From a virus: a DNA stretch of 64,000 bases. This document shows, piece by piece, positions 11,592 to 51,798 of the stretch; the first letter of the stretch is position 1, and each line of letters opens with the position of its first letter. The stretch covers positions 1-64,000 of IMG/VR virus record IMGVR_UViG_3300021373_002787; one strand, given 5' to 3'. Under the pieces are notes generated by a model. That model was not told the DNA's origin and searched no databases. It saw nothing but the letters and a program-made list of their open reading frames with translations. The translations under genes were made by a program, and so were the position numbers.

Positions 11592-11681
11592 TTTTTCAGT
11601 TTATTTTTTTTAATGGTTATTTTCGACATTATCGGGGCTTTCTGCTTCTGTCGCCCTTATCGTCGATATTCTTTATATATT
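11592..11681 (-). promoter_or_regulatory. Late promoter and structured leader of the major capsid gene
   Basis: AATATATAAA (11672-11681) matches the late consensus with one change. Unlike the other late promoters, which sit 20-22 nt from the ATG, this one leaves an 80-nt leader. The leader can fold: CGAC/GTCG and GGGC/GCCC arms enclose a purine-rich loop (about 11622-11665). It then runs into an A-rich stretch before the ATG. No U-tract follows the arms, so it does not look like a terminator. Confidence 0.5.
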
Positions 11682-27388: not shown

Positions 27389-27799
27389 TTATTTTATTGT
27401 TGAATAGGCTTCAAACCATTCAGGTGTTGAAATAATCTCGCTTATTACGCTTTTGTCATCGACATTGATTTGAATTAATCCACCTTGTTTTTGGATAGAT
27501 TTCCAAAACTTCTTTACAACTCCGATTTTTTTATATTGATTTTCATCAAATTCAAGAACTTCAATTCCAGTAATTTTTAAGACATCGGTCGGCCTAACAA
27601 AGGAATGCATTCCAGATCCAACTGCATTTGTTTTTTCATCTCGACCCATTATTGTTCTTGAGTGAATAACTCCAAAATAGTTTAGTCTTACAAGGTCTGC
27701 TGGTTGAAAGGTTTTAGCATTCTTATATTTGCTTACAAAATCTTCTACCGACATATTTGCCTCGTTTACAAACTGTTCGAATAATTTTACGTGTTTCAT
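27389..27799 (-). CDS. Capsid-targeted cargo protein inserted in the replication block
   Basis: A 136-residue protein that opens with MKHVKLFEQFVNE-A, the shared targeting peptide, with predicted cleavage after VNE13. The mature part begins NMSVEDFVSKYKNAKTF; two other cargo proteins have a related segment here (ITFQDLVNKYKDN at 34317 and MSLQDLVESDAED at 33944). The rest is a small beta-rich domain with no recognised family. It lies alone between the clamp gene and nrdA, bounded by near-identical terminators, with an AATATATAGA sequence 26 nt upstream. It looks like a late cassette dropped into an early region. Confidence 0.75.
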   Translation of the reverse strand: MKHVKLFEQFVNEANMSVEDFVSKYKNAKTFQPADLVRLNYFGVIHSRTIMGRDEKTNAVGSGMHSFVRPTDVLKITGIEVLEFDENQYKKIGVVKKFWKSIQKQGGLIQINVDDKSVISEIISTPEWFEAYSTIK

Positions 27800-32827: not shown

Positions 32828-33229
32828 TTATATACGAGAATCGTGAGATGTTTCCACCCGGCTACTTAAATATTTAGCAATAATATGGGCTGCTTTATAA
32901 TTTGTTGCAAGCGGTACATTATGAACATCACATAGCCGCATTAGCATTGAAATATCTACATCATGTGGGTGTTTGTCGAGTGGGTCTCTAAAAAAGATAA
33001 CTGCATCCATTTCTTTTCGGGCAACCATTGCTCCGATTTCTGCATCTCCTCCAAGAGGACCACTGTTGACGCGCTCTACCTTTTCCACTCCAGCGTGCAA
33101 GATGCTGGATCCTGTTGTTCCCGTTGCTACAAGTTCTACGTCTTCCCGGTTGAAAAAGTCTAGTCTCTTCATAACAAAGGCAACCATGTCGGCCTTTTTG
33201 CCATCGTGTGCTATTAGTGCTATTTTCAT
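32828..33229 (-). CDS. mgsA: Methylglyoxal synthase
   Basis: Converts dihydroxyacetone phosphate to methylglyoxal and phosphate, a bypass of lower glycolysis. The 133-residue protein matches bacterial MgsA (152 in E. coli) along its length: IALIAHDG (His8-Asp9), ATGTTGS, NSGPLGGDAEIG with the catalytic-base Asp62, VIFFRDPLDKHPHDVD with Asp82, His89 and Asp92, and PLATNYKAA. All residues known to bind phosphate or act in catalysis appear to be kept, so the enzyme is probably active. It overlaps the HAD gene by 4 nt (ATGA) and is followed after 23 nt by the polymerase N-terminal gene. Confidence 0.92.
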   Translation of the reverse strand: MKIALIAHDGKKADMVAFVMKRLDFFNREDVELVATGTTGSSILHAGVEKVERVNSGPLGGDAEIGAMVARKEMDAVIFFRDPLDKHPHDVDISMLMRLCDVHNVPLATNYKAAHIIAKYLSSRVETSHDSRI

Positions 33230-33831
33230 TTATTATCATTTAAAAATTTAAGTATTTTATCCTTTATGCCGGACTGCTTAATTCCTTCGTTAGATCTTGG
33301 AGTATGTACAAAATTGATTAAACCTGGCTTATTATCCGAGCCATCTTTTGCCGCAAACCTATCTCCTAAGAATTCAACTCCCATATCTAAATCATCAATT
33401 GCAACCCAGTCCGTAACCTCGTTGTTATCTAACCAGTGTTGAATTTCCATACTGCGCTCTAATTCAAGATCTGCCCTAGATCTCAACCTCGACCATTCAC
33501 TTGGAAATAAGTCTTTAAACATTCCAGTAGCGTCAATCGGTCTCTTTATAATACCCTGAGACTCGTAGTAATCTCCCAATTCTTCCAGGTTTGCATGAAA
33601 TCTCCAATCTGATGATACTACTATCTCCGCTCCTGTTTCTTCTAGGATTGAGTTAAGTAATTTGACTGCTTTCTTGTCAAAGTTATCGAAACGCACTTCA
33701 ACTGGCCCATTAGCACCAAAGCCTCTACGGGGGTTATCTTCGGTAAAGAATGCCCTCTGTTTTTTAAAGCGAGTGCCCCAGTTATTTGAGAGGCAGATTA
33801 CACCATCATTGTCCAAAAAGATTACCTTCAT
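33226..33831 (-). CDS. HAD-superfamily hydrolase
   Basis: A 201-residue phosphatase-like protein. The start chosen is ATG at 33829-33831 (MKVIFLDNDGVICLS), because motif I of HAD proteins lies at the N-terminus; a longer frame would translate the intergenic terminator. Motif I is FLDNDGV (nucleophile Asp), motif II VVSSDWRF, and a late acidic motif VAIDDLDMG. The SSDWR pattern and the WL-N...W-x-AIDD spacing fit the small HAD group that includes phage polynucleotide-5'-phosphatase-like proteins. The substrate is unknown. It is translationally coupled to mgsA, which could mean a linked metabolic function or shared early expression only. Confidence 0.8.
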   Translation of the reverse strand: MKVIFLDNDGVICLSNNWGTRFKKQRAFFTEDNPRRGFGANGPVEVRFDNFDKKAVKLLNSILEETGAEIVVSSDWRFHANLEELGDYYESQGIIKRPIDATGMFKDLFPSEWSRLRSRADLELERSMEIQHWLDNNEVTDWVAIDDLDMGVEFLGDRFAAKDGSDNKPGLINFVHTPRSNEGIKQSGIKDKILKFLNDNK

Positions 33832-33884
33832 ATCGTTTATATAGGCAGGTTTACACTTGTTTCCTATGCTAATATAAACAAAAA

Positions 33885-33907
33885 GCCTGACATAAAAAAT
33901 GTCAGGC
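33885..33907 (-). terminator. Rho-independent terminator
   Basis: GCCTGACA / TGTCAGGC stem with an A/T loop; on the minus strand it is followed by TTTTTG. It ends the cargo-gene transcript coming from the right, before the HAD-mgsA-polymerase group. A TATAAATA sequence (33934-33941), identical to the T4 late promoter core, lies just upstream, but its relevance is uncertain. Confidence 0.8.
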
Positions 33908-33943
33908 CAATTATTTTGCAAAAGTGAGTGTTTTATTTATATC

Positions 33944-34264
33944 TTAATAAAGATCATCAAGTAGTGTTTGTAGACGATACACTAACTCACCCCACATATC
34001 AGAACCTGTTGAGACAGGTTCTAACCCAAGTTTATCAAAGCGTTTTGTTTTAGGTTTATATTTTCTCTTAATATTTTTTAGAGATTGTTCTAAATCTTTT
34101 TTTGCATCTGTTACTAAAGATTCATATTCATCTACAAGGCTATTGTAATCATCAACCCATTTATTTATGTCTTCTGCATCACTTTCTACAAGATCTTGAA
34201 GCGACATGGCCTCATTAACGAAGTCATTGCTTAAAAAGCTCTCAAATGTTTTTAAATGTTTCAT
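33944..34264 (-). CDS. Capsid-targeted cargo protein
   Basis: A 106-residue helical protein. The N-terminus MKHLKTFESFLSNDFVNE-A is the targeting peptide with a five-residue insertion; predicted cleavage is after VNE18. The mature part starts MSLQDLVESDAED, related to the segments at 27389 and 34317, then continues as charged coiled coil (LEQSLKNIKRKYK). No enzyme motif is visible. It is the last gene of the cargo cluster, followed by a terminator at 33885. Confidence 0.75.
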   Translation of the reverse strand: MKHLKTFESFLSNDFVNEAMSLQDLVESDAEDINKWVDDYNSLVDEYESLVTDAKKDLEQSLKNIKRKYKPKTKRFDKLGLEPVSTGSDMWGELVYRLQTLLDDLY

Positions 34265-34316
34265 TTTTCTACGTTTTTTTTCAGTGCCGCTAGTTTAATA
34301 AAGTAAAGTGAGTATT

Positions 34317-34868
34317 TTATCTAAAGTCCGCTCTAACTTTAAACTTTCTATCTTTAATAATGTTATTCATCTCGTTAGAAAGGTAGGCTAAGATTTCCAT
34401 CTGAGCATTCTTAGCAGCTTCATCAACAGAATCTTCGGACATATATCTTGAAAAATCTTCCCAATTATTTGCAGTTTCTTTATACCAATCTTTAAACTCT
34501 TCAATTAGGTTCGTTGCTGGTACATCAAAACTCGGTAGTTCAATATATTCTTCATTGACTTTAGATTCATTAACTGTAAGTTCGTATCTGTACTTAAATG
34601 CTTTATCTGCTGTAGACTTTGACATCGTTTTAGCTTTGATGCCCATCTTTTTAAGTTTAGCTTCAGTTTCTTTGCGATCGTAATTATCTTCAAATCTTAA
34701 AACTAATTGATTACCCCAGTTTTCACTTTCGACATACTCAACAGAGTTTGCACCTATGCCATATGGGTTGTCTTTATACTTATTTACAAGATCTTGAAAT
34801 GTGATTGCCTCATTTGTAAGTTCACTAGCTTCATTTACAAATGATTCAAAGTTATTTAAGTGTTTCAT
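34317..34868 (-). CDS. Capsid-targeted cargo protein
   Basis: A 183-residue acidic protein. The targeting peptide is MKHLNNFESFVNE-A, followed by a second possible cut LTNE20-A. A segment ITFQDLVNKYKDN matches the start of the mature cargo at 27389. The middle alternates short strands and helices (LVLRFEDNYDRKETEAKLKK). The C-terminal half is helical. No family recognised. Twelve nucleotides separate it from the preceding gene's stop. Confidence 0.75.
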   Translation of the reverse strand: MKHLNNFESFVNEASELTNEAITFQDLVNKYKDNPYGIGANSVEYVESENWGNQLVLRFEDNYDRKETEAKLKKMGIKAKTMSKSTADKAFKYRYELTVNESKVNEEYIELPSFDVPATNLIEEFKDWYKETANNWEDFSRYMSEDSVDEAAKNAQMEILAYLSNEMNNIIKDRKFKVRADFR

Positions 34869-34879
34869 AATTATTTAAT

Positions 34880-35485
34880 TTATTTTACTTTAATTTCAGT
34901 TCTAATCTGTAAGGTCGATCTTCCTCCATAAATACCGATAACAAATGAAGGTATAATTTTATTTATGTCAAGCAAATATTGAAATGGAACAGCAGTTACC
35001 GGCAATTCTATAAACCAGACCCCATAATTATTATTAGCACTCATTTGATATTTTTTGAATGGTAATATTTTCACCAATTCGTTAATGATGTTTTCAACCT
35101 CTTGAGGGTATTCTCCAGTTTTGGCTTCATTTACAAAGGATTCAAAGTTATTTAAGTGTTTCATTTTTCTTTTCTTTTTTTTGTATTCCTCTTCTGCATC
35201 GCCTTGGCCTGCAGGAACATCACCAGAACCGTTCTCTGTAGATGTTGGAAGCTTGACTGGTCCGATTCCTCCGACGCTATCAATTGAGATATTTTCAACA
35301 ACCTCTGGGAGGCCTTCGTGTTTTGTTTCTGCAAAACCTTTTAATTGTTTTAGAGTCATACCACTGACAAGATCTTTTACTTTGTCTCTATAATCTGAAT
35401 CGACGTCCGAAATCTGCATATCGCCCTTTTTAACAGCGTATGCTACTCCCATTAATCTTTGCTGTGTTTTACTTTGACTTGGCAT
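34880..35485 (-). CDS. DUF3008-like protein fused in frame to a capsid-targeted cargo protein
   Basis: A 201-residue frame with two parts. Residues 1 to about 62 (SKTQQRLMGVAYAVKKG, then KGFAETKHEGLPE) match the DUF3008 type of small phage protein. At residue 108 (ATG at 35162-35164) a complete targeting peptide begins (MKHLNNFESFVNE-A), followed by a small cargo domain. The linker YKKKKRK is the translation of an A-rich leader of the kind that precedes every separate cargo gene. Either a stop codon was lost and the genes fused, or ribosomes also start inside at 35164. Protease cutting after VNE120 would separate the parts in the head. Confidence 0.75.
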   Translation of the reverse strand: MPSQSKTQQRLMGVAYAVKKGDMQISDVDSDYRDKVKDLVSGMTLKQLKGFAETKHEGLPEVVENISIDSVGGIGPVKLPTSTENGSGDVPAGQGDAEEEYKKKKRKMKHLNNFESFVNEAKTGEYPQEVENIINELVKILPFKKYQMSANNNYGVWFIELPVTAVPFQYLLDINKIIPSFVIGIYGGRSTLQIRTEIKVK

Positions 35486-35519
35486 TTACGAAATCTTCAT
35501 ATAGTTTTACGTGCTCTAT
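35469..35519 (-). pseudogene. Decayed capsid-targeting peptide
   Basis: Seventeen codons reading IEHVKLYEDFVNAKSK-stop, clearly related to MKHVKLFEQFVNEA. The start codon is now ATA, the cleavage Glu is lost, and the frame ends in TAA inside the start of the DUF3008-like gene, which is read in another frame. It looks like the remains of a cargo gene start. Confidence 0.7.
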
Positions 35520-35531
35520 TGTTTAAATATT

Positions 35532-35897
35532 TTATAGCTTTAGCCCTATCGAAATTGCAGTTACATATTCTTTGGCGTAAGCAGGTGATCTTTTAGATTT
35601 ACTTACAAATGGTAATTTCTTAATGCTTGATATGGCCCGCTTTACATCAAACTTATCTAATACATGGTTTCGTTCTGCTAGGTCTGTTGCCGTTGCCGTT
35701 AAATTATATCCACCAATTTTATTATCATAACTTGGCAAAGCTTGTATTTTCCAGTACATGTGTCCTGTTGCTTTATAAAGATCATCTTTGATTTCCTTTT
35801 TGTGGGCGTCTACTGCATCGACAACTTTTTTGTAATCTTCTCTGCTCATAGATTCATTTACGATTAAGAATTCTTCAAATAATTTTACGTGTTTCAT
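35532..35897 (-). CDS. Capsid-targeted cargo protein
   Basis: A 121-residue basic protein with targeting peptide MKHVKLFEEFLIVNE-S (two-residue insertion, predicted cut after VNE15). The mature part is a small alpha/beta domain: MSREDYKKVVDAVDAHKK helix, MYWKIQALPSYDN, GGYNLTATATDLAERN and a final basic strand AYAKEYVTAISIGLKL. No family recognised; small basic proteins delivered with phage DNA are often inhibitors of host nucleases or polymerases, which is only an analogy here. Confidence 0.75.
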   Translation of the reverse strand: MKHVKLFEEFLIVNESMSREDYKKVVDAVDAHKKEIKDDLYKATGHMYWKIQALPSYDNKIGGYNLTATATDLAERNHVLDKFDVKRAISSIKKLPFVSKSKRSPAYAKEYVTAISIGLKL

Positions 35898-35908
35898 TTT
35901 TATTTTGA

Positions 35909-36103
35909 TTAGAATTTTTGATATTTTGATGTAAAATCTATCATTTGGGGTCCCATTTTCCTAATAAAATCAATAGTTTGTTGAGATATATCTGAAGTGT
36001 TTTCTAAATAATCACAAGCTTCTTCAATTTCTTTCTTTAATGCTGATGTAGAGATTACCTTTGCTTCATTTACGAAATGTTCAAGTAATTTTACGTGTTT
36101 CAT
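35909..36103 (-). CDS. Small capsid-targeted cargo protein
   Basis: A 64-residue protein, the shortest of the set: MKHVKLLEHFVNE-A, then a helical 50-residue body (ALKKEIEEACDYLENT, IDFIRKMGPQMIDF). After the predicted cut only 51 residues remain. It is 11 nt from the gene at 35532 and 21 nt from the large gene upstream. Confidence 0.72.
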   Translation of the reverse strand: MKHVKLLEHFVNEAKVISTSALKKEIEEACDYLENTSDISQQTIDFIRKMGPQMIDFTSKYQKF

Positions 36104-36124
36104 TTTTATTAGTATAGTTTTTAA

Positions 36125-38221
36125 TTACCAAACGTAATCCATTTTTTTAATCTTAGAGATTCTGTCTTTAATTGACTTAGCGTAGTTCTTCACTTCTCTT
36201 GAATAGTAATTGCTACTATATCCTTCTTCTTCTTCACGCTTTGCTTGATTTGTATAGTCTACATATCTGTTAAAATCATCTAGAAGATTTTGCATTGCGT
36301 TTGAAGCATCTCTTAGTTTAACCTCACGGCCTTTAGGATCCTTTCCGATGATAACATCTCCCCATTTTCCTTTAGCACCAGTAGCTAAACCATCTTTAAT
36401 TTGAGAGGTAACTACATCAATTGCATTTAAGACTTCTTTATCGATAGGCATTTTAGCAGCTCTATCTGCTAGGATCATGTGGTATCTGTCAAGATTTTCT
36501 TTCTTAAAGTCTTTATCATTTTTAAACGCGATTGCTCCTTTTCTTGCAGTAGTTCTTTCATCACGTTTTGCCGAGGTAGAATATCTTGCTTTTAAAATGT
36601 CAAGATCAAGAACATATGCTCTATCAGCAAGTTCAGCTACTTTAGTAATACTTGAGATTCCAGATCCCCATGAGTCTCTAGCGTTAGATTTATTAAACCC
36701 AACAGCATCTTCTTTTTTAGATGTTTTTAATGTTCTATCTCTTGATCCTCCTAGTCTCCTTTGATATCCACTGGCAAGCCATTCATTTTTTCCATTAGTT
36801 GCACCTAATAGTGTGTTTGCGGGAATAGTTTTGTGCCAGGAGTCCGCTGCATATGGGTTCTCCTTTTCATTGGTTGTAAAATACAGATAAACCGCATTGT
36901 TTCTCTTTTCTTTTCTTGCTTCAACTGGATCCATTTCGATAATATCTACATCTTGGATTTTATCAAGTTGAATCTTTGCCATACCGTAGAACACTTTAGC
37001 AAAATCTTTTTGCATAGAGCTTGCGCCCGTTAAGATTGACTGTAACTTCATTGATTGAAATGCTTCTGCAATCATCTCTTCAGATTCATTAACTGACTCT
37101 TTTAGTGTTTCAACGAATTCATTAAATGATTCGTATATAAAATTATTTTTCATTTCTTTATTATTTTTATTATTTTTTGATTCAAATGTTCCTGTTGATG
37201 CTAGGTTGTAAAGGTGGTCGGCAATCTTTTTAGCTTTTGAACCTTTATGTCCATAAGTTGCAACTGTTTCTTCAGCCTCTTCGGGCATCATCTCTGTTAA
37301 TTCCCACGGATCAAACTCATCCATTAAATCATTTAAGATTTGTTTAGCCTCTTTTTCAAATTTATCAGCTTCGTTAACAAAAGATTCATCGAAGTTCCAT
37401 CCTGTAATTTCTTCTTCAGGGATATCAATGTAATCCATTAAATACTCTGCAAACTCTTCTGCATCATCTCTATTCTTAAATTCGAATGTATTGGCAGAAG
37501 TCATCTTACCCATTTTAGAGTAATCAACTCTAAATGCTTCACCAGCTTCTCTAGCGTATCTTACAGACACTTCAATTGCTGGCTTTTTGGATTTAGATAG
37601 GTGGGTAGGTTTTTTATGTTTTTTTAACCAATCGGTCTCGTGAAGTTGATCATCATCTTCTTCGTCTTCAACACCATCGCCGTCCTCATCATCGATTACG
37701 CTAGCATCAAGGCCAGTTCCTCTAGGTACACCAATTGTATCTGCTAGGGCTCCTGTAAGTCCTGGAGCCAGCTTTTTAGCTAGGTTTGGAGCTTTTTCCT
37801 CTAACTCTTCTTCTAGCTCTTCTGAGTTTTCTTTAATTGTAACTGGGAAAGTTTCTCCGTCAAATTCAAATTCTTCTTTACCTTCGTCTTTTGCTTTCTT
37901 AGCGGCAGCTACAAACGCTCTTCCTTCTTCAATGATTGCAATTTGCGAAAGCGCTCTTTTTCCAAATGTAGAAAGCGAGATACCTTCTTCCGAAACGTTA
38001 AAGTATTTTGTATTTCTTCTGATCCACTTTGAAGAATCTTTAGAATATTCTTTTAAGATTGCATCAAATTCTTCCTGCGTAATTTTTCCGTCGGCAATTG
38101 CTTCAAGCATTTTATTTCTAACTCTAGCGCTTTTTCCAACTTGTACTGCAGGGTGATTTTCAGTGTATCTTCTCTTAAGGGTTATTTTACTTCCCTCATT
38201 TAAAAAATCTTGAAAATTCAT
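36125..38221 (-). CDS. Large mosaic capsid-targeted protein (possible polyprotein)
   Basis: A 698-residue protein with at least three targeting-like units. It starts MNFQDFLNE-G. At 278-285 it has DESFVNE-A followed by DKFEKEAKQ, like the DKKIEKEAKKWW of the small cargo at 42175. At 357 an internal ATG (37151-37153) starts KNNFIYESFNEFVETL with VNE379-S; the residues before it, SKNNKNNKE, look like a translated A-rich leader. Residues 95-130 (IIEEGRAFVAAAKKA...FEFDGETFPVT) share a motif with the gene at 44322. No enzyme motif recognised in the basic C-terminal 320 residues. A GATATATAAA promoter lies 21 nt upstream. Confidence 0.72.
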   Translation of the reverse strand: MNFQDFLNEGSKITLKRRYTENHPAVQVGKSARVRNKMLEAIADGKITQEEFDAILKEYSKDSSKWIRRNTKYFNVSEEGISLSTFGKRALSQIAIIEEGRAFVAAAKKAKDEGKEEFEFDGETFPVTIKENSEELEEELEEKAPNLAKKLAPGLTGALADTIGVPRGTGLDASVIDDEDGDGVEDEEDDDQLHETDWLKKHKKPTHLSKSKKPAIEVSVRYAREAGEAFRVDYSKMGKMTSANTFEFKNRDDAEEFAEYLMDYIDIPEEEITGWNFDESFVNEADKFEKEAKQILNDLMDEFDPWELTEMMPEEAEETVATYGHKGSKAKKIADHLYNLASTGTFESKNNKNNKEMKNNFIYESFNEFVETLKESVNESEEMIAEAFQSMKLQSILTGASSMQKDFAKVFYGMAKIQLDKIQDVDIIEMDPVEARKEKRNNAVYLYFTTNEKENPYAADSWHKTIPANTLLGATNGKNEWLASGYQRRLGGSRDRTLKTSKKEDAVGFNKSNARDSWGSGISSITKVAELADRAYVLDLDILKARYSTSAKRDERTTARKGAIAFKNDKDFKKENLDRYHMILADRAAKMPIDKEVLNAIDVVTSQIKDGLATGAKGKWGDVIIGKDPKGREVKLRDASNAMQNLLDDFNRYVDYTNQAKREEEEGYSSNYYSREVKNYAKSIKDRISKIKKMDYVW

Positions 38222-38242
38222 ATTTAATTGTTTCTTTGTTTT

Positions 38243-38252
38243 TTTATATATC
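38243..38252 (-). promoter_or_regulatory. Putative late promoter GATATATAAA
   Basis: Exact consensus, 21 nt from the ATG at 38221. It encodes the final Asp-Ile-stop of the upstream gene, as at 4644 and 46307. Confidence 0.65.
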
Positions 38253-39509
38253 TTTCTTAACTAAGAACTGAGAAAACGTAAGAAGATTCGACTCATCGAT
38301 AGGACTCTCTTGTGTTTTTAACTTTTGATGGTTCAAATAAGTCTTAAAAGGCATTACGCTTGATTCGTTACTCTTTAACATAACAATTGCCTCAATTTTA
38401 TCGACAATTGTATTGATTTGCTCCATTAAGTCTGCATTTATAATATCAGTCTCTTTTGCTCTTTTCTTTCTAAATGAACCAATTGCAATCTTATATAGTT
38501 CTGAAAGAACCCTATTGTTTACGTATTCAATTGTCTTTTCGTTCTTGATAAATTTAGTATTCAATTCAAATTCAGGTCGATCACTAAAGTCTGCGGAATC
38601 AAAACTAACACCAACATATTTTGCTGCATTCTCATTAACATATGCGTTAAATACATTTGAAATTAGTTCAATGTATCTCTCGTCTGCTTGGTCTGATTCA
38701 AGTTGAATATTATCAACATCATATTCAGAAAAGAACTCAACTAGGTCTAATAGTGAAATTTGATATGTGTCGCTTGGTTTTCTAGACTCACTAACCTCAG
38801 TTTTTGTTCCACTAAGTTTAAAGTTTTTTACCGTCTTGCCATCAAAGAAATTAATAACTAAAGAATCAATATCTCCATCAAGATCTTCATTAAGAGCCGT
38901 CTTACTTAACGAATTATTAAAAATGTTATATGCTCTTCTGGTAAAACTTAACGCTTCATATGCTTGATTTCTTTCGGCATCACTCATTTCTAATAGTTTT
39001 ACTAGCTCATCTTTCTGATGAGAACTCAATACTCCTTTAAAAACAACCTGTGGTCTTTGAACATCTAATTTATCTGCCCATTCAAAAAGAACCTTTGGGT
39101 CTCTAATAACCTTCTTTATTAGTGTATTGTCTAGAGGGTTCATTACCTGAATATGTGTTAAGATAAGCCCGTTCTTTGGTGTTTGATCGTATTTAATGTC
39201 AATTGTTTGACTGTCTGTCATGTAGTCAAAACCAAACTTCCAGTCAAGCGGCATTTCAGCCTTTGTCACGTCGTCAACCGATTCAAAATATTTAATTGCA
39301 TTCTCATAATATTTAGCGATTGTGCGATCTACTTTATCCAACGGCTTCTTTTTACCACTCTTAAAATAGGTGTAACCAACTGAATCGTTTTGAACGTGAA
39401 ACGAAGATGCCTGTACTTTTTCAGTAACAACACATGGAGACTTTAGCATCTCCATAAAATCTTCTCTATTCGTTGATTCAAAATATGTATGTAAGCTTTG
39501 TAGTGCCAT
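38244..39509 (-). CDS. Divergent ligase/nucleotidyltransferase-fold protein, putative
   Basis: A 421-residue protein, not firmly recognised. SPCVVTEKVQASSFHVQND near residue 25 resembles ligase motif I (E-K-x-D-G), with VQA in place of the usual x-D-G; a basic stretch FKSGKKKPLDK follows, and WKFGFDYMTDSQTIDIKY with GLILTHIQV fits the positions of motifs III and IIIa. The rest is helical and acidic. If it is a ligase-fold protein, the altered motif I makes catalysis doubtful. The start SLHTYFESTNRE loosely resembles a targeting peptide but lacks the consensus. The neighbouring gene at 43032 has the same order of elements with intact motifs. Confidence 0.45.
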   Translation of the reverse strand: MALQSLHTYFESTNREDFMEMLKSPCVVTEKVQASSFHVQNDSVGYTYFKSGKKKPLDKVDRTIAKYYENAIKYFESVDDVTKAEMPLDWKFGFDYMTDSQTIDIKYDQTPKNGLILTHIQVMNPLDNTLIKKVIRDPKVLFEWADKLDVQRPQVVFKGVLSSHQKDELVKLLEMSDAERNQAYEALSFTRRAYNIFNNSLSKTALNEDLDGDIDSLVINFFDGKTVKNFKLSGTKTEVSESRKPSDTYQISLLDLVEFFSEYDVDNIQLESDQADERYIELISNVFNAYVNENAAKYVGVSFDSADFSDRPEFELNTKFIKNEKTIEYVNNRVLSELYKIAIGSFRKKRAKETDIINADLMEQINTIVDKIEAIVMLKSNESSVMPFKTYLNHQKLKTQESPIDESNLLTFSQFLVKKDI

Positions 39510-39516
39510 AGTTTTA

Positions 39517-40632
39517 TTATTTAGCGATGTCTTCTGGTAGAGGCAGACCTGACATTCCTAGTTTAACTTCAAATTCTTTAAAGATCTCATCTCTCTTTTT
39601 AGGAAACTTAAACATTGATGAGTTAATTAAATCTCTTAAACTCTCATATGTCATTAAATCACTTACTTTTGCGCCATCGAAGAGAAGGTCTGCTATCTCT
39701 TCTGGTAGTCTTGTAATTTCTTTATCGAATTCTTTTAGTAACTTTGCGTTTTTAACCAATCCTCTCTTACCAACAAATGATTTACGAACCTTTACAACTC
39801 CTTGATTCAAGCGAATTACATATGCTTCGTACTCTTTTGTTTCTCCCTCTTCTGTTTGATCTATAATCTCAACAAATGATTTACCAATTGCCGACATTAG
39901 GAGGATGTTTCTATATGCACCTTTATATTTTGACTCGTCTTTTGTAAAGTCTGGAGAGTGGTACATAAATCTACTCCAATTAATATCTCTTGATAACATT
40001 AGGTCGACTTGACCTACTCCATTATTTGATTTACCCTCAATAGGAGCAGCGATTGATACCTGCTGGAATCCTACAGCCATTGAGGTGTCTAACCCTTTTT
40101 CTTTCAATAAATCATTCATATCGAAAAGAACTTTAGCCAGTGAAGTGTCTAAGTGTCCTGCAATCTTATCGGCAGAAACAGCAATATCAATATCTCCGCT
40201 AGTCTCTCCTGGATTCTTTTTTCCAGCGCTTCCAATAACTGCAGCATCCTCTCCGATACCAGCAATTCCAATATGAGGAAAAACATTTTTCTCGATCCAT
40301 TCTAGAGTTGCTGCAACTTCATGTTGTTCAAATGGTCTGGACTGTGCAATTGCATTACCACTTTCACTTACAAACTGTTCAAACGCAGCTGCAACATATT
40401 TACGACCGTGTTTATTATGTAATATGTCTGAGATTAGACCTTCTTTGTCAATCCCTTTAGGGTTACCAATTTTATAACTTAGCGACCACATCTTTCTTAA
40501 TTCAGCAGTTGACGTCTTTTTAAGTTTTTTGTACTCTCTGCGGATTGATTCAGGATCCCTCTTTGAAGAAAAGTTTGATCGCGGAATCTTATCTTCACTT
40601 ACAAACTGTTCAAATAATTTAACGTATTTCAT
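39517..40632 (-). CDS. Capsid-targeted nucleotidyltransferase (pol-beta superfamily), double targeting unit
   Basis: A 371-residue protein starting MKYVKLFEQFVSE-D. A second copy of the peptide is embedded at about 80-91 (YVAAAFEQFVSE-S), whose DNA still matches other cargo starts, so this is an in-frame fusion of two cargo genes. The first unit (14-79) is a small helical basic domain. The second has the nucleotidyltransferase active site: GSAGKKNPGETSGDIDIAV (Gly-Ser at 134-135, Asp147 and Asp149) and a third Asp in VGQVDLML. This superfamily transfers NMP to proteins, RNA or antibiotics. After cleavage the enzyme would be free inside the head and could be delivered to the host. Confidence 0.78.
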   Translation of the reverse strand: MKYVKLFEQFVSEDKIPRSNFSSKRDPESIRREYKKLKKTSTAELRKMWSLSYKIGNPKGIDKEGLISDILHNKHGRKYVAAAFEQFVSESGNAIAQSRPFEQHEVAATLEWIEKNVFPHIGIAGIGEDAAVIGSAGKKNPGETSGDIDIAVSADKIAGHLDTSLAKVLFDMNDLLKEKGLDTSMAVGFQQVSIAAPIEGKSNNGVGQVDLMLSRDINWSRFMYHSPDFTKDESKYKGAYRNILLMSAIGKSFVEIIDQTEEGETKEYEAYVIRLNQGVVKVRKSFVGKRGLVKNAKLLKEFDKEITRLPEEIADLLFDGAKVSDLMTYESLRDLINSSMFKFPKKRDEIFKEFEVKLGMSGLPLPEDIAK

Positions 40633-40640
40633 CTCTATTT

Positions 40641-40994
40641 TTACTTATTATGATATTCTATTTGGTCTTTTAAAAATTCCTTAATTGTTGGAATTACATC
40701 ATCTTCAGAATTAATTTCATCAGCCCAGTTGTCATCACCAAAAACCTCTCCATTTCTAAAAAATCGAATAGATCCGTAATCACGATCATTATCTTTGTAT
40801 TTAGGTCCAGTCAGAATATAATCCATTCTATTTGCCAGAATTCCCTCTTTTTCAATAGTTGCCGGATACCCAGCCTTTTTAAGTATCTTAGCCGCTTTTC
40901 TCAGGTTTAATTTTACACCTCTATCTCTTCCTACTTCTTTAGCAGTTATCGTGTATTCACCTATAAACTGCTCAAATAATTTAACGTATCTCAT
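40641..40994 (-). CDS. Capsid-targeted cargo protein
   Basis: A 117-residue basic protein: MRYVKLFEQFIGE-Y targeting peptide, then TAKEVGRDRGVKLNLRKAAK, a helix, and a beta segment (MDYILTGPKYKDND, GSIRFFRNGEVFGDD). No family recognised. An 8-nt gap separates it from the nucleotidyltransferase gene that follows it. Confidence 0.74.
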   Translation of the reverse strand: MRYVKLFEQFIGEYTITAKEVGRDRGVKLNLRKAAKILKKAGYPATIEKEGILANRMDYILTGPKYKDNDRDYGSIRFFRNGEVFGDDNWADEINSEDDVIPTIKEFLKDQIEYHNK

Positions 40995-41060
40995 TATTAG
41001 TTGTTTGTTTTTAATTACAGTACTAATATAATTAAAAAGTCTGACATAAAAAATTCTGGC

Positions 41061-41666
41061 TTATTTTATTATGTGTTTTCTTAATTTGTCATAGTATTTA
41101 TAAAGATATTTCGGCACCATCTTTTCGAATGCTTCTCTATCATCATTTGCAAGTGCTTCTCTAGTCTTTGTACCGCTAGGTCCTCCTTCTGCTCTTGCAT
41201 CTACCATTTCTAGTTTAAAATCCGGATGTACAACCGTATCGGTCTTTGGTCCAGTAACATATTTAATCTGTGGTGTGTATGCCTTGATTCTGTCGCTTCC
41301 AGCACCTACACCAACAGTCTCATATCCTTGCTCTCTTAAGAATCTAACAAACCAAGGAATTACTGTTCTACCATAGCTATTTGGGTAAATAAAGAAATCT
41401 GCGATCTCCTTCTCGTTCTTTGCAACCTCTTGTCCAATTTGAAGTAGAAGGCTTTCTGGGAATGGAGACTCTTCACGCTTTGAAACTATTTGCATCGCAA
41501 CTACTGGCTTACCAAACATTTTGGCAGCATTTTTAAGGGCTGCGATATGTCCATTATGAAATGGCTGGAATCTACCAGGCATTACCACGACTTCAGTACC
41601 CTCAATTGGTTGAGTGGTGTCTACCGCCTCACTAATAAACTGCTCGAATAGTTTTACGTGTTTCAT
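41061..41666 (-). CDS. Capsid-targeted nucleotidylyltransferase (NMNAT-like)
   Basis: A 201-residue protein: targeting peptide MKHVKLFEQFISE-A, then a complete Rossmann-type nucleotidylyltransferase domain. VVMPGRFQPFHNGH (about 27-40) carries the (H/T)xGH motif, and PSGTKTREAL near the C-terminus is the second nucleotide-binding motif (S-x-T-x-x-R type). VGVGAGSDRIKAYTPQ fits the adenylyl site. This size and pattern are those of archaeal-type NMN adenylyltransferase, which makes NAD from NMN and ATP; other NMP transfers are possible. Finding it behind a head-targeting peptide suggests that the enzyme is packaged and injected. Confidence 0.85.
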   Translation of the reverse strand: MKHVKLFEQFISEAVDTTQPIEGTEVVVMPGRFQPFHNGHIAALKNAAKMFGKPVVAMQIVSKREESPFPESLLLQIGQEVAKNEKEIADFFIYPNSYGRTVIPWFVRFLREQGYETVGVGAGSDRIKAYTPQIKYVTGPKTDTVVHPDFKLEMVDARAEGGPSGTKTREALANDDREAFEKMVPKYLYKYYDKLRKHIIK

Positions 41667-41685
41667 CTTTTTCTTTATTTTTTGC

Positions 41686-42132
41686 TTAGCCTATATAATA
41701 GCTACTAGATTTATCTATATTAAGTTCTTTACCATAGTCATCAGTAAATGCATTGTATGGTTTTTTAGCACTTAGTGAAAATGAATTTGCGTCAATTTCT
41801 TGGATTAAGAAATGTAAAGATTCTACTCTAGCCATTCTTTCTAAACCTGGTCTAATAGTTTCTATAGCTTGGTCAATATCAAACCCATCTTTGGCGTTAA
41901 ATGTCATAAATGTTTTAGAACCTGGTTTAATTGTAACTCTACTAGTTGATAAAGATTGAATATCACTAGGTTTTACGAATTTTTTAACCGATGAAACAAA
42001 ACCCTTTGAATTTTTCCATGGCATATAATTAGTAGATGCTCCTATTCCACCTGCTCTCATTTCAGTATCGCGGTCTACTCCATAGTACTCGGCTTCATTT
42101 ACAAATTGTTCAAATAGTTTTACGTGTTTCAT
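41686..42132 (-). CDS. Capsid-targeted cargo protein
   Basis: A 148-residue protein: MKHVKLFEQFVNE-A, then a mature part with YYGVDRDTEMRAGGIGAS, a Lys/Ser-rich strand region and a helix DIDQAIETIRPGLERMARV. No family recognised. It is 19 nt upstream of the NMNAT-like gene, in the same direction, with the usual A/T-rich leader. Confidence 0.74.
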   Translation of the reverse strand: MKHVKLFEQFVNEAEYYGVDRDTEMRAGGIGASTNYMPWKNSKGFVSSVKKFVKPSDIQSLSTSRVTIKPGSKTFMTFNAKDGFDIDQAIETIRPGLERMARVESLHFLIQEIDANSFSLSAKKPYNAFTDDYGKELNIDKSSSYYIG

Positions 42133-42174
42133 TTTGATGCTATATTTTATTTAAATTAGATGTTTTCCAGCTTT

Positions 42175-42432
42175 CTAACATCTGCACATCGCATAACCTA
42201 GAACGTTTTCAACATATGATTCTAATTCTTCTATAGTAGCATATATTTCATCTGGATCTGTATTTGGATCGTAAAGACCTTTATCCATTAAATAGTCAAT
42301 AAACATGTCCATGTCTTCGTTATCCCAAACATCTCTTCCTTTCATTGTTTTAGCCCACCATTTTTTAGCCTCTTTCTCGATTTTCTTATCGGCTTCATTT
42401 ACAAATTGTTCGAATAGTTTTATGTGTTTCAT
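42175..42432 (-). CDS. Small capsid-targeted cargo protein, copy A of a duplicate
   Basis: An 85-residue protein: MKHIKLFEQFVNE-A, then DKKIEKEAKKWWAKTMKGRD and DMDMFIDYLMDKGLYDPN, a helical acidic/basic domain. It is a close paralogue of the gene at 42775-43023 (same first 30 residues bar three, same central helix). The end differs (GYAMCRC here, GYEFDY there). No family recognised. Confidence 0.76.
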   Translation of the reverse strand: MKHIKLFEQFVNEADKKIEKEAKKWWAKTMKGRDVWDNEDMDMFIDYLMDKGLYDPNTDPDEIYATIEELESYVENVLGYAMCRC

Positions 42433-42441
42433 TGCTTCTTT

Positions 42442-42756
42442 TTATCTTTTAATTTCTATATTATAATAATGTTCATTATCACCATTTTCTTTAACAACCT
42501 GTAGAGCTTTTGCACCAAAATCTTTAATAGCCTCTCTAATATCTTTTGCAATAGATTGGCCCTTCATACCTCTATATGTTATGAAAATATTTTTTGTGTC
42601 TTTAGGTCCTTTTGGAAAAGCATAAGGAACAAATTTACTTTTCATTTCTTGAGCAGTGCCATGATTCCAATCAAGTTCATTTTCAAGGTGCTTGATTAAT
42701 TCATCAACGTTTACAGATTCATTAATATATTGTTCGAATAGTTTTATGTGTTTCAT
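42442..42756 (-). CDS. Capsid-targeted cargo protein
   Basis: A 104-residue basic protein between the two duplicate genes: MKHIKLFEQYINE-S, then VNVDELIKHLENELDWNH and a small alpha/beta domain (NIFITYRGMKGQSI, then KDIREAIKDFGAKALQVV). No family recognised. Its leader and those of its neighbours are alike, consistent with growth of the cluster by local duplication. Confidence 0.74.
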   Translation of the reverse strand: MKHIKLFEQYINESVNVDELIKHLENELDWNHGTAQEMKSKFVPYAFPKGPKDTKNIFITYRGMKGQSIAKDIREAIKDFGAKALQVVKENGDNEHYYNIEIKR

Positions 42757-42774
42757 CTTGGTGTTATATTTTAT

Positions 42775-43023
42775 TTAATAGTCAAACTCATAACCTAGAA
42801 CGTTATCAACATATGATTCTAGTTCTTCTCTAGTATCACTTAGTTCATCTGAATTTGGATCTACTAGACCTTTATCCATTAAATAGTCGATGAACATGTC
42901 CATGTCTTCGGCATCCCAAGAATCTCTTCCCTTCATTGTTTTAGCCCACCATGTTTTAGCCTCTTTCTCGATTTTCTTATCGGCTTCATTTACAAATTGT
43001 TCAAATAGCTTTACGTGTTTCAT
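42775..43023 (-). CDS. Small capsid-targeted cargo protein, copy B of a duplicate
   Basis: An 82-residue paralogue of the gene at 42175: MKHVKLFEQFVNE-A, DKKIEKEAKTWWAKTMKGRD, DMDMFIDYLMDKGLVDPN. The differences fall in the loop after the central helix and at the C-terminus, which suggests selection for variation at those sites or simple drift. It follows the ligase-like gene by 8 nt. Confidence 0.76.
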   Translation of the reverse strand: MKHVKLFEQFVNEADKKIEKEAKTWWAKTMKGRDSWDAEDMDMFIDYLMDKGLVDPNSDELSDTREELESYVDNVLGYEFDY

Positions 43024-43031
43024 TTTACTCC

Positions 43032-44321
43032 TTATTTTTTGTATGCTAAGATACTTCTAATTTGATGGATTGGTGCAAAAATACCAGTGTACTTATAGAC
43101 TTTACCTTTATAAACAAATGTAATACCTTCGGTAGGTACAATGTTCTCTAATCCTCCAACTGCTGCAACTCTACTTAATTCATGTTCAAGTTTTTCAACA
43201 TCTGTCGCATCTCCATTTTTTCTAATAGTATTAATAGCAGTCTCGATCTCTTTGCGCATCTGCTCTCCAGCCTGTGTTGGGTTTGCGGATAAGAAAGCCT
43301 CCATATGTTGCATCATCTCTGTACCAACCTCTAGGAAAAGATTTTCAAGAGGAGCATAGATTTGCTTCTTAATCATCTTTTCATTCTTTTTCTCGAAATC
43401 ACTGTACTCCTTTGTTAAATCGGGACCCATGTCCTTTTTCATTTTAGCAACACTATATGATTTGTTGATCCCTCCAAGTCGATTAGCAATTCCTTCAATT
43501 GACTCTTCTGGAATATCTATGTCAAGTCCTCTAACGACGTTAACCGCTCTACCAACGACAAAATCCTGTACTGTTGAATTTAAGTTAATACCTGCATCCT
43601 GCATGATACCTTTTAGTTTGTCATTATAATACTTTGCTCTCGCTTTGGTATTCTTAAATGGCTTGATAGGAATATCCTGTGGTCCACGAACATAGAACAT
43701 CTCTTGTGCTGCAGCGTTTGCGTCTGCTATCATCTTACCAAGATCTCTACCGGCTTGTTTATCTTCTCCAACTACTTTTCCATCAATGTCGTATTCTACA
43801 ATACCATGAAATACTAGAAGGTCTTGACCATAAGGAACTGTGTTCTGTGTTACTGGAGTCATAATTTCGACGCTTGCGAATTTTGTACCTTCACCAAACA
43901 TCTTTTCTTTATCACCAGGAGAAAGGGCTCCAATTGAAGCACTTAGATCGCGCATTGCTGTGTTGTATGCAATTTCAATGTCTCCTCTGTCTTTGAATTT
44001 TGCGGCAAGATCGGCTGCTGTCATTGCGTTTTCACCAGCATTCTTAAGATGACTCTTATTTCTTGCAGCAATTAGTTGACCATTCTTCCATGAAATTGAA
44101 AGCTGCTGTCCGTCAGTTTTTTCTTGAACGAAGTTTTCTGGACCAAATGCTCCTTGAACTGTAGCATCAATCATATCTTTTACATCCGCCATTGTTAAAC
44201 CTAAGTCTTCAAACGGATGGGTAAGGTGGCCATATGCTCCACCTTCAAATAACGGTTCGAGGTCAGTATTTCTGACCTCTCTTTCCGTTAAAAATTCTTC
44301 GTATGTATATAATTTATTCAT
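43032..44321 (-). CDS. Ligase-fold nucleotidyltransferase (RNA/DNA ligase-like)
   Basis: A 429-residue protein. ENFVQEKTDGQQLSISWK puts the motif I Lys at residue 68 (K-T-D-G), with an upstream HPFEDLGLTMADVK segment seen in a widespread phage family. FASVEIMTP and DLLVFHGIV follow as motifs III/IIIa, and VPTEGITFVYKGKVYKYTG near the C-terminus gives motifs IV and V, so the full covalent nucleotidyltransferase core is present. The start YTYEEFLTE-R resembles a targeting peptide with a cut after LTE13. It lies inside the cargo cluster, between the mosaic protein at 44322 and the duplicate genes. The substrate (RNA, DNA or another) is not readable. Confidence 0.65.
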   Translation of the reverse strand: MNKLYTYEEFLTEREVRNTDLEPLFEGGAYGHLTHPFEDLGLTMADVKDMIDATVQGAFGPENFVQEKTDGQQLSISWKNGQLIAARNKSHLKNAGENAMTAADLAAKFKDRGDIEIAYNTAMRDLSASIGALSPGDKEKMFGEGTKFASVEIMTPVTQNTVPYGQDLLVFHGIVEYDIDGKVVGEDKQAGRDLGKMIADANAAAQEMFYVRGPQDIPIKPFKNTKARAKYYNDKLKGIMQDAGINLNSTVQDFVVGRAVNVVRGLDIDIPEESIEGIANRLGGINKSYSVAKMKKDMGPDLTKEYSDFEKKNEKMIKKQIYAPLENLFLEVGTEMMQHMEAFLSANPTQAGEQMRKEIETAINTIRKNGDATDVEKLEHELSRVAAVGGLENIVPTEGITFVYKGKVYKYTGIFAPIHQIRSILAYKK

Positions 44322-46271
44322 TTATCCTAGTGAAGATTGTAAAGCTCCTACCATAGAACCATAATCTCCTTTATGTTTTGAAATTAAACCATCGACTATT
44401 TCTTGTGCTTTTTCTTCGTCAAATTTATCTCCAAATGCTTTTTGAAGTACTGCAAAAGCATATTCTTTGAAGTCATCATCTGATTTTACTTCAGCTTCGG
44501 TAACTGCTGATTCTTTAATATCAAATGAATGAACTCCACCACCTGACATAATATCTCTCCACTCAACGTGATTTAACTCTACTTCTGGATATAGTGTCTT
44601 TACTTGATCGATTACATAGTCTGGATTTACTTTAAATCCGTATCTAACCTCTAGTTTTTTCTTATCAAGTTTTGTAACTTTTGGTGGTGTATTACCACTA
44701 TACGCTATGCGAAGTTGATATTGTACATCGCTCTTATTTAGACCTTCGCTTACTTCAACATCCGCTGATTCCATTGGCTCAAACATTTTAACCATCATTT
44801 CAAAGTCTTTCTTAAAATAACTTCTTAGGTAACCTCTAACCGCATCGTCAATTAAACCATCTCTATCTCTTTTGTATTCTGGCCAATCATCCCAGTGCCA
44901 ATCAACTGCATTTTCCGCAGCATCTCTTAGTTTTCTATCAAAAGGTGATGGCATTTTCTTAGGACTACCAGCATCTTTATGGATTTGTTGATTCATGATG
45001 CTTTGATCTGAAGAACCCCATTCGTTGACTACTGATTCTCCTGCAAAGTCTTCTGCATTCTCTTTGTCCTCTTTATCTACTGAAGTTACTTTGTACGTTT
45101 CACCGTCAACCTCAAATTCATCTTCACCGTCTGCGATTGCCTTTGCTCTTGCAGCTCCAAACTCATTTCCTTCAAGAATTCTAGCCTCTAGTACTTCTTT
45201 ACTTTCGAATTGAGCGTGAAAATCAGCGATTAATTTTGCGGCCATTGTTTTCTCTCCAATAGAATCTAGGTATAGTGCAGTTCCTTCAACGATTCCTTGT
45301 CCTCCCCAGCCAGCGGCATTTGAAATTCTAGAAGCTTCATTATATAATGCGACTTTAATTCTATCCGCTGAAACTTTAACTTCAATATTACCAAGTCCGC
45401 TTGGTTTTGTTACGATCGGAGAAAGTGCTCCTTTGATATTTTTAGCAATTGCATTTCCCTCTCTAGAAAAATTAGCGTCCTCCATTGCAGCTTGGAAAAT
45501 AACTTTAACTGCCCCAAGTTGCATATTTTTACCATCTACTAAACTTGTGTACATCTTACCAAATAGGTGATTGTATTGAGTTACTACCTTCTTAGCATCT
45601 CTCTTATATTCGATTGGAAAACTTCCAGTTGCTTCAAAAACAAACTTTTCAAAACGAGTAGTTTCAACTGTTTCAAATGCAGGTTTTAGGTCATTATCTT
45701 CATAAGTATCTGCCATATACCATTTTCCGTCTCTTTCATCATATAGATAGATGAATTCTGCCCATGACTGTTTAGCATCTCCAATAAAGTCTCTAATGTA
45801 GCCTGCGTTTCCTGACATTGTCTCCGTATCGTCGTTATAATAATTAATCTTCTTTGGATCAGCCTCTAAACCAGATCCTGCTCCATTTTGAATAACAACG
45901 TCGATGTTTTTTCTCTTAGATCCTGAGTAACCCTTCTTGATTAGTGGTAACATATTTTCTGGATAACCGTCATAATGCATATAAACAGCTTGAATGTCTC
46001 CCTTTTTATTAATTTTACCAAAGAATGAACGTGTTCCCTCTTCAATTAGAGAAAGTGATTCATTAAGATCAGTACCTTCTAATCTTGAAAAGAACTCTCC
46101 TCTCTTTTCTTCGTCTAGTTCAGATACTTTTGTTACTCCGTATTCTGCCAATAGATCTTTGAAACTGCGTGCAGTTTCTTCTCTAGCCTCTGTTTGTTTT
46201 TGTGCTTCCTCTTCAGCTAATCTTTGTGATCTAGCCTTTGTGAAGTCTTCAAATGAATTTAATCCAGCCAT
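44322..46271 (-). CDS. Large head-associated protein, cargo-like
   Basis: A 649-residue protein. The start LNSFEDFTKARSQRLAEEE is weakly like the targeting peptides. At about 375-410 it has RILEGNEFGAARAKAIADG, then EFEVDGETYKVT, the same motif as in the gene at 36125 (IIEEGRAFVAAAKKA and FEFDGETFPVT). The C-terminal 200 residues carry an alpha/beta region (VTKLDKKKLEVRYGFKV) and a helical end. No enzyme motif recognised. A GATATATAAA promoter (46307-46316) lies 35 nt upstream. It starts the late transcript that runs into the ligase-like gene with no gap. Confidence 0.6.
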   Translation of the reverse strand: MAGLNSFEDFTKARSQRLAEEEAQKQTEAREETARSFKDLLAEYGVTKVSELDEEKRGEFFSRLEGTDLNESLSLIEEGTRSFFGKINKKGDIQAVYMHYDGYPENMLPLIKKGYSGSKRKNIDVVIQNGAGSGLEADPKKINYYNDDTETMSGNAGYIRDFIGDAKQSWAEFIYLYDERDGKWYMADTYEDNDLKPAFETVETTRFEKFVFEATGSFPIEYKRDAKKVVTQYNHLFGKMYTSLVDGKNMQLGAVKVIFQAAMEDANFSREGNAIAKNIKGALSPIVTKPSGLGNIEVKVSADRIKVALYNEASRISNAAGWGGQGIVEGTALYLDSIGEKTMAAKLIADFHAQFESKEVLEARILEGNEFGAARAKAIADGEDEFEVDGETYKVTSVDKEDKENAEDFAGESVVNEWGSSDQSIMNQQIHKDAGSPKKMPSPFDRKLRDAAENAVDWHWDDWPEYKRDRDGLIDDAVRGYLRSYFKKDFEMMVKMFEPMESADVEVSEGLNKSDVQYQLRIAYSGNTPPKVTKLDKKKLEVRYGFKVNPDYVIDQVKTLYPEVELNHVEWRDIMSGGGVHSFDIKESAVTEAEVKSDDDFKEYAFAVLQKAFGDKFDEEKAQEIVDGLISKHKGDYGSMVGALQSSLG

Positions 46272-51417: not shown

Positions 51418-51798
51418 TTAGATTCTTTTACCAAGTGCAGATCCCAATGCGGCACCTACTAACCTTGAAGTTAATAAATCATATAGAATTCCCTTTTGAA
51501 TCCCAAGAACTTTAGCGACCATCTTACCTACTGTTTTACCAAGTGCAAATCCAGCTAAACCACCAAAAATAGAACCTAACATACCTTCATTAGTTACCTC
51601 TTCATTAAATCTATTAATGTCTAGTTCTCCATTCTCGTTTGAGTATTCTATTATAAATTCTTCTAGAGCTGCATCTACCTTAGCCTCTAACTCGTCGGTC
51701 CATTCCTCTTGTAAACCTTCTGTCAAGATTCTCAAATCTTCTTCTGTAACATGCTGTTCAGTAAGGTACTCGTTAAATGTTTTAATTGTATTGCTCAT
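51418..51798 (-). CDS. Glycine-zipper membrane protein with targeting-like N-terminus
   Basis: A 126-residue protein: KTFNEYLTE-Q at residues 6-14 resembles the targeting peptides (F-x-x-[FY]-L-x-E). The middle is acidic helix, and the C-terminal half is a Gly/Ala-rich membrane-type region (LGSIFGGLAGFALGKTVGKM, then LVGAALGSALGKRI) with glycine-zipper spacing. Glycine-zipper proteins packaged in virions can form membrane channels during DNA entry; that role is inferred. A GATAAATATAG sequence about 28 nt upstream may be a promoter. Confidence 0.6.
   Translation of the reverse strand: MSNTIKTFNEYLTEQHVTEEDLRILTEGLQEEWTDELEAKVDAALEEFIIEYSNENGELDINRFNEEVTNEGMLGSIFGGLAGFALGKTVGKMVAKVLGIQKGILYDLLTSRLVGAALGSALGKRI

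Follow-up and report, generated by a model that had tools for sequence, protein, structure and literature searches.

Positions 33944 to 46271 of a virus record from IMG/VR (IMGVR_UViG_3300021373_002787; 86,216 bases, 82 genes) hold a cluster of 16 open reading frames (ORFs), all on the minus strand, most of which open with variants of one short peptide followed by mostly unrelated protein bodies. The stretch analyzed, referred to as the window, comprises the first 64,000 bases of that record, and genes are named here by their lower coordinate. The peptide, which we call the tag, takes the form M-K-x4-F-E-x-F-[VIL]-x-E before Ala, Ser, Asp, or Tyr. It is present at the N-terminus of 12 of the 16 ORFs, namely 33944, 34317, 35532, 35909, 39517, 40641, 41061, 41686, 42175, 42442, 42775, and 43032, the last in a weaker version. 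Three further ORFs deviate: 36125 begins with the short form MNFQDFLNE-G, 34880 has a full tag at residue 108 and none at its start, and 44322 opens with an imperfect one, MAGLNSFEDFTKAR. Two more tagged genes, 13658 and 27389, lie beyond this interval, for a record total of 14 of the 82 genes. An earlier, sequence-only reading of the window had counted at least thirteen genes starting with the tag, always with [VIL]-x-E. The count stands only if the short form of 36125 is included, 12 being the strict number in the interval, and the site is as described in substance, with shifts in 33944 (FLSNDFVNE-A) and 35532 (FLIVNE-S). The features of the cluster are as follows.

33944..34264, minus strand: tagged ORF of 106 residues, MKHLKTFESFLSNDFVNE-A (shifted site)
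34317..34868, minus strand: tagged ORF of 183 residues, MKHLNNFESFVNE-A
34880..35485, minus strand: ORF of 201 residues with a DUF3008 domain (PF11450, 2.3e-09), then an internal tag and a further body
35123..35164, minus strand: internal tag MKHLNNFESFVNE-A, residues 108-121 of 34880-35485, with its own ATG
35532..35897, minus strand: tagged ORF of 121 residues, MKHVKLFEEFLIVNE-S
35909..36103, minus strand: tagged ORF of 64 residues, MKHVKLLEHFVNE-A
36125..38221, minus strand: multi-module ORF of 698 residues, short tag, internal sites
37367..37390, minus strand: internal site DESFVNE-A (Glu-284) within 36125-38221
37082..37102, minus strand: internal site KESVNE-S (Glu-379) within 36125-38221
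38244..39509, minus strand: putative RNA-ligase-fold protein of 421 residues, without N-terminal tag, tag-like C-terminal tail LLTFSQFL
39517..40632, minus strand: tagged nucleotidyltransferase (by motif only) of 371 residues, with an inserted module
40360..40383, minus strand: internal site FEQFVSE-S (Glu-90), corresponding to the N-terminal tag end in relatives lacking the insert
40641..40994, minus strand: tagged ORF of 117 residues, MRYVKLFEQFIGE-Y
41061..41666, minus strand: tagged cytidylyltransferase-like protein of 201 residues (PF01467, 9.9e-08; phrog_3041, 1.3e-11; alignment)
41686..42132, minus strand: tagged ORF of 148 residues
42175..42432, minus strand: tagged ORF of 85 residues, paralog of 42775
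42442..42756, minus strand: tagged ORF of 104 residues
42775..43023, minus strand: tagged ORF of 82 residues, paralog of 42175
43032..44321, minus strand: protein of 429 residues with the weaker tag MNKLYTYEEFLTE-R and a KxDG motif, weakly like RNA ligases
44322..46271, minus strand: multi-module ORF of 649 residues (phrog_1987, 1.3e-15), imperfect tag, internal sites

A Shared N-Terminus Across Relatives

Comparison of N-termini without any seed, controlled by five draws of 15-mers at internal Met residues, grouped 13 of the 82 genes of the 86,216-base record into its largest similarity cluster, while the controls formed none. Clusters also appeared in six relatives: G003 (22/206 genes), G010 (26/139), G011 (8/64), G006 (23/321), G009 (18/162), and LR756500 (40/687), with largest control clusters of 8 in LR756500 and 5 in G006. 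The sequence-only reading had asked whether the peptide occurs in related genomes and had put the repertoire at more than a dozen proteins; clusters of 8 to 40 genes were recovered, so that the repertoire exceeds that estimate. An initial, stricter tag pattern gave zero matches. A degenerate DNA pattern of the tag matched 10 times in this record, 18 times each in G003 and G010, and 30 times in LR756500, compared with 0 matches in T4, 1 in PTm1, 2 in Mel-JY01, and 2 in Lak-C1; reversed, it had 0 matches here and 3 in 18 records combined.

Altogether, 170 tagged genes were collected over 11 records. With the tag removed, BLAST divided them into 106 body families, 79 of them single. Glu occupies tag position 13 in 81% of these genes compared with 2-15% at positions 14-40, and the residue after it is Ala, Ser, or Gly in 90 of the 135 tags having a clear site. 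At a threshold of 11, tag-like stretches numbered 187 at the N-termini of the lineage's proteins (1.0 in shuffles) and 7 at their C-termini (1.0 in shuffles); the corresponding values for four control phages were 7 (2.7) and 2 (0.7), with 11 (6.0) internally. The feature is real and conserved.

Head Genes and the T4 Targeting Peptide

T4-type head genes lie on the minus strand of the window, listed here with the remaining tagged ORFs.

10104..11591, minus strand: major capsid protein (phrog_138, 8.3e-43)
11681..13606, minus strand: prohead protease (phrog_207, 8.8e-39) with a scaffold-like C-terminal region rich in [VIL]-x-E
13658..14050, minus strand: tagged core-position ORF of 130 residues, between portal and protease
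14070..15668, minus strand: portal protein
27389..27799, minus strand: tagged ORF of 136 residues, outside the cluster
51418..51798, minus strand: ORF of 126 residues with a weak tag, MSNTIKTFNEYLTE-Q

The protease, encoded among these head genes, belongs to the gp21 family and matches T4 gene 21 by BLAST (7e-09). Among 50,697 phage records, the closest capsid match is LR756500, a 462-kb uncultured phage (51%), and the next relatives by capsid or portal are Lak phages, other huge phages, Tenacibaculum phage PTm1, PAU, and Chryseobacterium phage MA9V. Because of these matches, the fragment is assigned to a giant phage of the T4 superfamily, and the same relatives point to a Bacteroidota host. 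Inspected by eye only, the 35 bases 5' of tagged starts look A/T-rich and mostly free of Shine-Dalgarno-like stretches, which would suit such a host.

In T4, ten residues of internal protein IPIII are enough for packaging, with targeting at residues 4 and 7 and processing at residues 8 and 10 (PMC9026906). The tag keeps this spacing with a shift of three residues: position 7 is aromatic in 165 of the 170 tagged genes, position 10 is aromatic in 168, position 11 is aliphatic in 157, and position 13 is Glu in 138, all four occurring together in 128, although these counts are partly circular because the genes were picked by likeness to seeds (the Glu peak and the small residue after it are less so).

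The position of tagged genes relative to the head genes agrees with this likeness. A protease was found in five lineage records, and four of them have a tagged gene in core position, here meaning the space between the portal and the protease or the four ORFs upstream of the latter. The sequence-only reading had drawn attention to this place by noting the peptide on 13658. In this record and in G003, the tagged gene indeed lies between the two head genes. In G006 and G009, the neighbor of the protease is untagged as called, and tagged genes occur within four ORFs (NYTDWLNE-A and HIQTFESFLNE-S in G006, YNYEEWLAE-S in G009). A variant reading Y-x-x-W-L-A-E before Lys, Ser, or Gly was also seen on four G009 genes (L066:552-1289 and three more), one of them upstream of the protease.

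Tags of Other Lineages

The cultured phage PAU carries another tag, MK[TSG][LI]xx[LM][YF]E, on 19 of 300 genes (no more than 3 in controls), 8 of which run on to Asn-Glu at positions 13-14. Fourteen of the 19 fall within 100.2-121.1 kb, around the portal and capsid genes. By the depositors' annotation, gp152, a scaffold protein, is among the tagged, as is every gene labeled 'internal capsid protein' in the 96.3-165.0 kb examined (gp142, gp154, and gp199). The PAU pattern had 0 matches in eight other records, which indicates that tags are private to lineages. In MA9V-2, the peptide MKTFTYFINE-A, located between portal and protease, aligns gap-free with T4 MKTYQEFIAE-A, and 6 of 271 genes form an N-terminal cluster of this kind. 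The first 360 kb of LR756501 (735 kb) disclosed two clusters, of 16 and 13 of 488 genes, ending in F-[VI]-x-E-[AS] or F-E-[AS]. Separately, 21 of 712 genes of LR756508 (L023, 26205-38997 and elsewhere; as many as 6 in controls) bear the motif M[KR]LTExKLRxIIREE, which may represent a second, unrelated type of tag; several of these genes lie between portal and protease.

Gene Order and Stacked Modules

The cluster is ordered. Homologs of 43032, 41061, 39517, 38244, and 36125 keep this order in all seven relatives that span them (L004-L007 and L016-L018); the first four do so in L009 as well, and L015 starts within the set. Small tagged genes among and beside them are gained and lost even between near relatives, in which 43032 is 85-98% identical. 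The cluster is best explained as a fast-changing cargo locus around a stable enzyme set.

Modules swap between separate tagged genes and multi-module ORFs. The nucleotidyltransferase body of 39517 directly follows the tag in six aligned relatives, and an insert separates it from a full N-terminal tag in this record, L007, and L006. The old site, before SGN, keeps Glu-90 in 9 of 9 aligned nucleotidyltransferases, while its docking half has decayed (FEQFVSE, PESFVVE, PESFISE). As there is no Met at this site, an internal start cannot stand in for cutting. A DUF5661 domain makes up the first insert of L006 and forms a separate tagged gene in LR756500. Similarly, a module marked by AGKLGYN is a tagged gene in L006 and has one copy in the large ORF of L005 (G003) and two in those of L004 and L007, with IKESVNE-A after each copy in L004. 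Tagged stand-alone relatives of 36125 correspond to its residues 1-98 (L016, L017, L018) and 208-276 (L005). In L006 and LR756500, a tag-like peptide closes the DUF3008 protein, and in this record, G002, G003, and G005 the ORF continues into a cargo body; the body behind DUF3008 and the internal tag in G002 (96%) and G003 (83%) is the separate tagged gene 34317 here. The internal tag of 34880 has its own ATG, so internal initiation is possible there. Since internal copies keep the cleavage part as the docking part decays, one chain could yield several cargo proteins. A stretch EGxAFxAAxxKAxxxGxxEFxxDGxxYxV also recurs in 36125-38221, 44322-46271, and relatives.

Predicted Cargo Enzymes

The tagged gene 41061 encodes a cytidylyltransferase-like protein by Pfam, PHROG, and alignment, and 39517 shows a polymerase-beta-like signature by motif only. 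Identification of 39517 as RlaP (PF10127) was rejected, as no profile match was obtained (0 in this record, 1 of 11 records, in LR756502). The AlphaFold model of 38244 is middling (pLDDT 68.5, pTM 0.39), and its best fold match is T4 Rnl2 (E 1.5e-6, TM 0.33/0.41), suggesting a putative RNA-ligase fold; no sequence match was found in Pfam or PDB. Its TEK motif is invariant in 9 of 9 sequences of one alignment, with Asn replacing Lys in LR756500, and its C-terminus reads LT[FY]SQF[LF] in this record and in all five near relatives compared (6 of 6). The model of 43032 (AlphaFold, pLDDT 63.5) gave no significant fold match (best E 0.13); the protein has a KxDG motif and resembles RNA ligases weakly at most. 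Solved structures yielded no match to the sequence profiles of 43032, 39517, and 38244. A 43032 homolog of 579 residues with an insert was observed at L009:9986-11725 (the same in L008); an intein splicing domain (PF14890, 9.9e-13) was matched by one of the seven homologs aligned, which from its length must be this one.

Beside the cluster lie two further genes, of which the phosphatase type was found in 4 of 9 records.

33226..33921, minus strand: HAD phosphatase of the Swiss Army Knife RNA-repair type (PF18143, 2e-22), untagged, adjoining the cluster
32828-33229: MGS-like domain protein (PF02142, 2.9e-15)

In LR756500, one tagged gene is a polynucleotide 3'-phosphatase, and one untagged ORF fuses ligase and cytidylyltransferase homologs. 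Part of an RNA-repair set may be preloaded in the head. More widely, a scan of 147 tagged proteins matched 29 Pfam families at E 0.001 or better, with 1-6 members each among the matches listed; set aside from it were 20 proteins because their records (G002, G004, G005, and G008) are near-duplicates, and three more, of which one has 50 residues and two are truncated where their fragments end. Paralog families were also noticed among tagged genes (L086 and L095 of LR756500, L055 of G006), including a leucine-rich-repeat family of 6 members and a DUF285 family of 5.

Proposed Mechanism and Alternatives

We propose that the cluster represents an expanded, lineage-private version of the T4-type capsid-targeting system. 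The 13-residue peptide would dock a tagged protein on the prohead scaffolding core via aromatic residues 7 and 10, and the prohead protease (11681-13606) would cut after Glu-13, freeing the cargo inside the head. Freed cargo would then share the head with the packaged DNA and enter the cell at infection, and some ORFs would bring several cargo modules behind a single docking tag. Head targeting with cleavage is probable in our estimation. That the majority of the cargo is injected appears fairly likely from the T4 precedent.

The sequence-only reading had already proposed head targeting and cleavage, and comparison supports this well, through the T4 spacing, the tags on core-position genes, and the annotated capsid proteins of PAU; 38244, with no tag at its N-terminus, and 44322, with no clear one, do not conform. 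Other observations also weigh against the proposal. The Lak-B2 homolog of 39517 has no tag, and LR756500 has zero genes between portal and protease. N-termini formed no large cluster in T4 (4), PTm1 (2), or Mel-JY01 (3), near their own controls (2-3). Internal tag-like stretches in the lineage are modestly enriched at the threshold of 11 (29 compared with 11.3 in shuffles). The T4 site FLTE-A is not matched in the capsid protein, whose conserved L/I-x-E at 44 is a candidate cleavage site. Tagged bodies contain [VIL]-x-E at chance level, with the Asp control giving the same result, and are not specifically depleted of it.

The tag might instead bring proteins to the prohead core without leading to injection, most of them being core or assembly components that maturation destroys or expels. 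The core gene position of 13658, the tag on the annotated PAU scaffold, and the many small bodies without a known domain agree with this idea, and some tagged proteins may be core parts of this kind. As a general account, however, it is unlikely, given the enzymes among the tagged proteins and the fast turnover of bodies between near relatives. The scaffold-like part of protease 11681 is richer in [VIL]-x-E (27 compared with 14.2 expected) than the tagged bodies, an argument that is weak given the controls, since the Gln control is likewise raised (3 compared with 0.6).

Alternatively, the shared N-terminus could be a by-product of DNA recombination or a copied translation-start cassette with no sorting role. 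In three of four records, tag codons are identical somewhat more often than expected (this record, 0.67 compared with 0.50; G003, 0.58 and 0.52; G010, 0.59 and 0.47), but LR756500 falls below it (0.69 and 0.77), and the upstream DNA, compared by eye for 18 genes and one internal tag, is not common to them. Moreover, the peptide drifts between lineages as its aromatic and Glu positions stay, and PAU has different letters on its head genes. Such an origin is therefore very unlikely, and maintenance by selection on the peptide plus some copying fits best. Least probable of all is another sorting signal (e.g., for a replication compartment or membrane) or a degradation signal, for although some tagged genes are distant from the head genes (27389), the T4-like spacing, the core-position genes, and the annotated internal capsid proteins of PAU speak against it.

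Returning to capsid targeting, a bolder extension to a clade of giant phages is offered tentatively. The prohead protease would split tag-bounded polyproteins into several cargo proteins. Among the load would be RNA-end-repair and nucleotide-transfer enzymes that act before phage gene expression, and each lineage would evolve its tag together with its scaffold. If so, the preloaded enzymes could undo tRNA cleavage or nucleotide depletion by host defenses, and the injected set could be read by N-terminus comparison. What giant phages inject has so far been addressed by laborious virion proteomics. A short lineage-private tag, recognizable when the N-termini of a single genome are compared, would make the injected set readable from sequence. 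Here this gives 106 body families, the majority of no known function, among which counter-defense is plausibly well represented. The findings also suggest polyprotein-like packing of cargo and offer new tags with which proteins could be loaded into the heads of large phages.

Comparison with Known Systems

The closest counterpart is T4, whose IPI, IPII, IPIII, and Alt (processed by gp21) likewise bear a short N-terminal peptide on unrelated bodies, with the same aromatic/aliphatic/Glu spacing and a gp21-type protease. T4 has a few such proteins, whereas 13-40 tagged genes were found per record here. The tag is also longer by three residues, single ORFs contain stacked modules, some C-termini are tag-like, and enzymes are numerous. 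Giant phages of the SPN3US/phiKZ type also have a large load of head proteins, many of them ejected, and some lose N-terminal propeptides to a gp21-related protease (PMC5694885, PMC10052503). As described in PMC5694885, those propeptides are mostly longer than 100 residues and cut with [A/S/G]-x-E specificity; the peptide here is short and shared.

In phage P1, the DarB/Dar set similarly involves N-terminal capsid targeting of a counter-restriction protein, and the account of it in PMC9024508 describes one targeted protein, DarB, of 250 kDa, with no short shared peptide. The polyvalent proteins of phages and plasmids are likewise multidomain and thought to be packaged and injected; their likely processing is mentioned in general terms in PMC5512222, whereas module borders here have sites resembling those of a prohead protease. 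Jumbo phages also bring together an RNA ligase, a Swiss Army Knife HAD phosphatase, and a nucleotidyltransferase in their RNA-repair sets (PMC7824862). The nucleotidyltransferase here differs in not matching RlaP and in being head-tagged, head loading being absent from the section of PMC7824862 on these sets. Among open-licence papers, to which our searches were limited, we found no account of a tag shared by a dozen or more proteins. By comparison with these systems, what is new is the scale, the retention of the Glu site in modules stacked within single ORFs, and the presence of enzymes among the predicted cargo.

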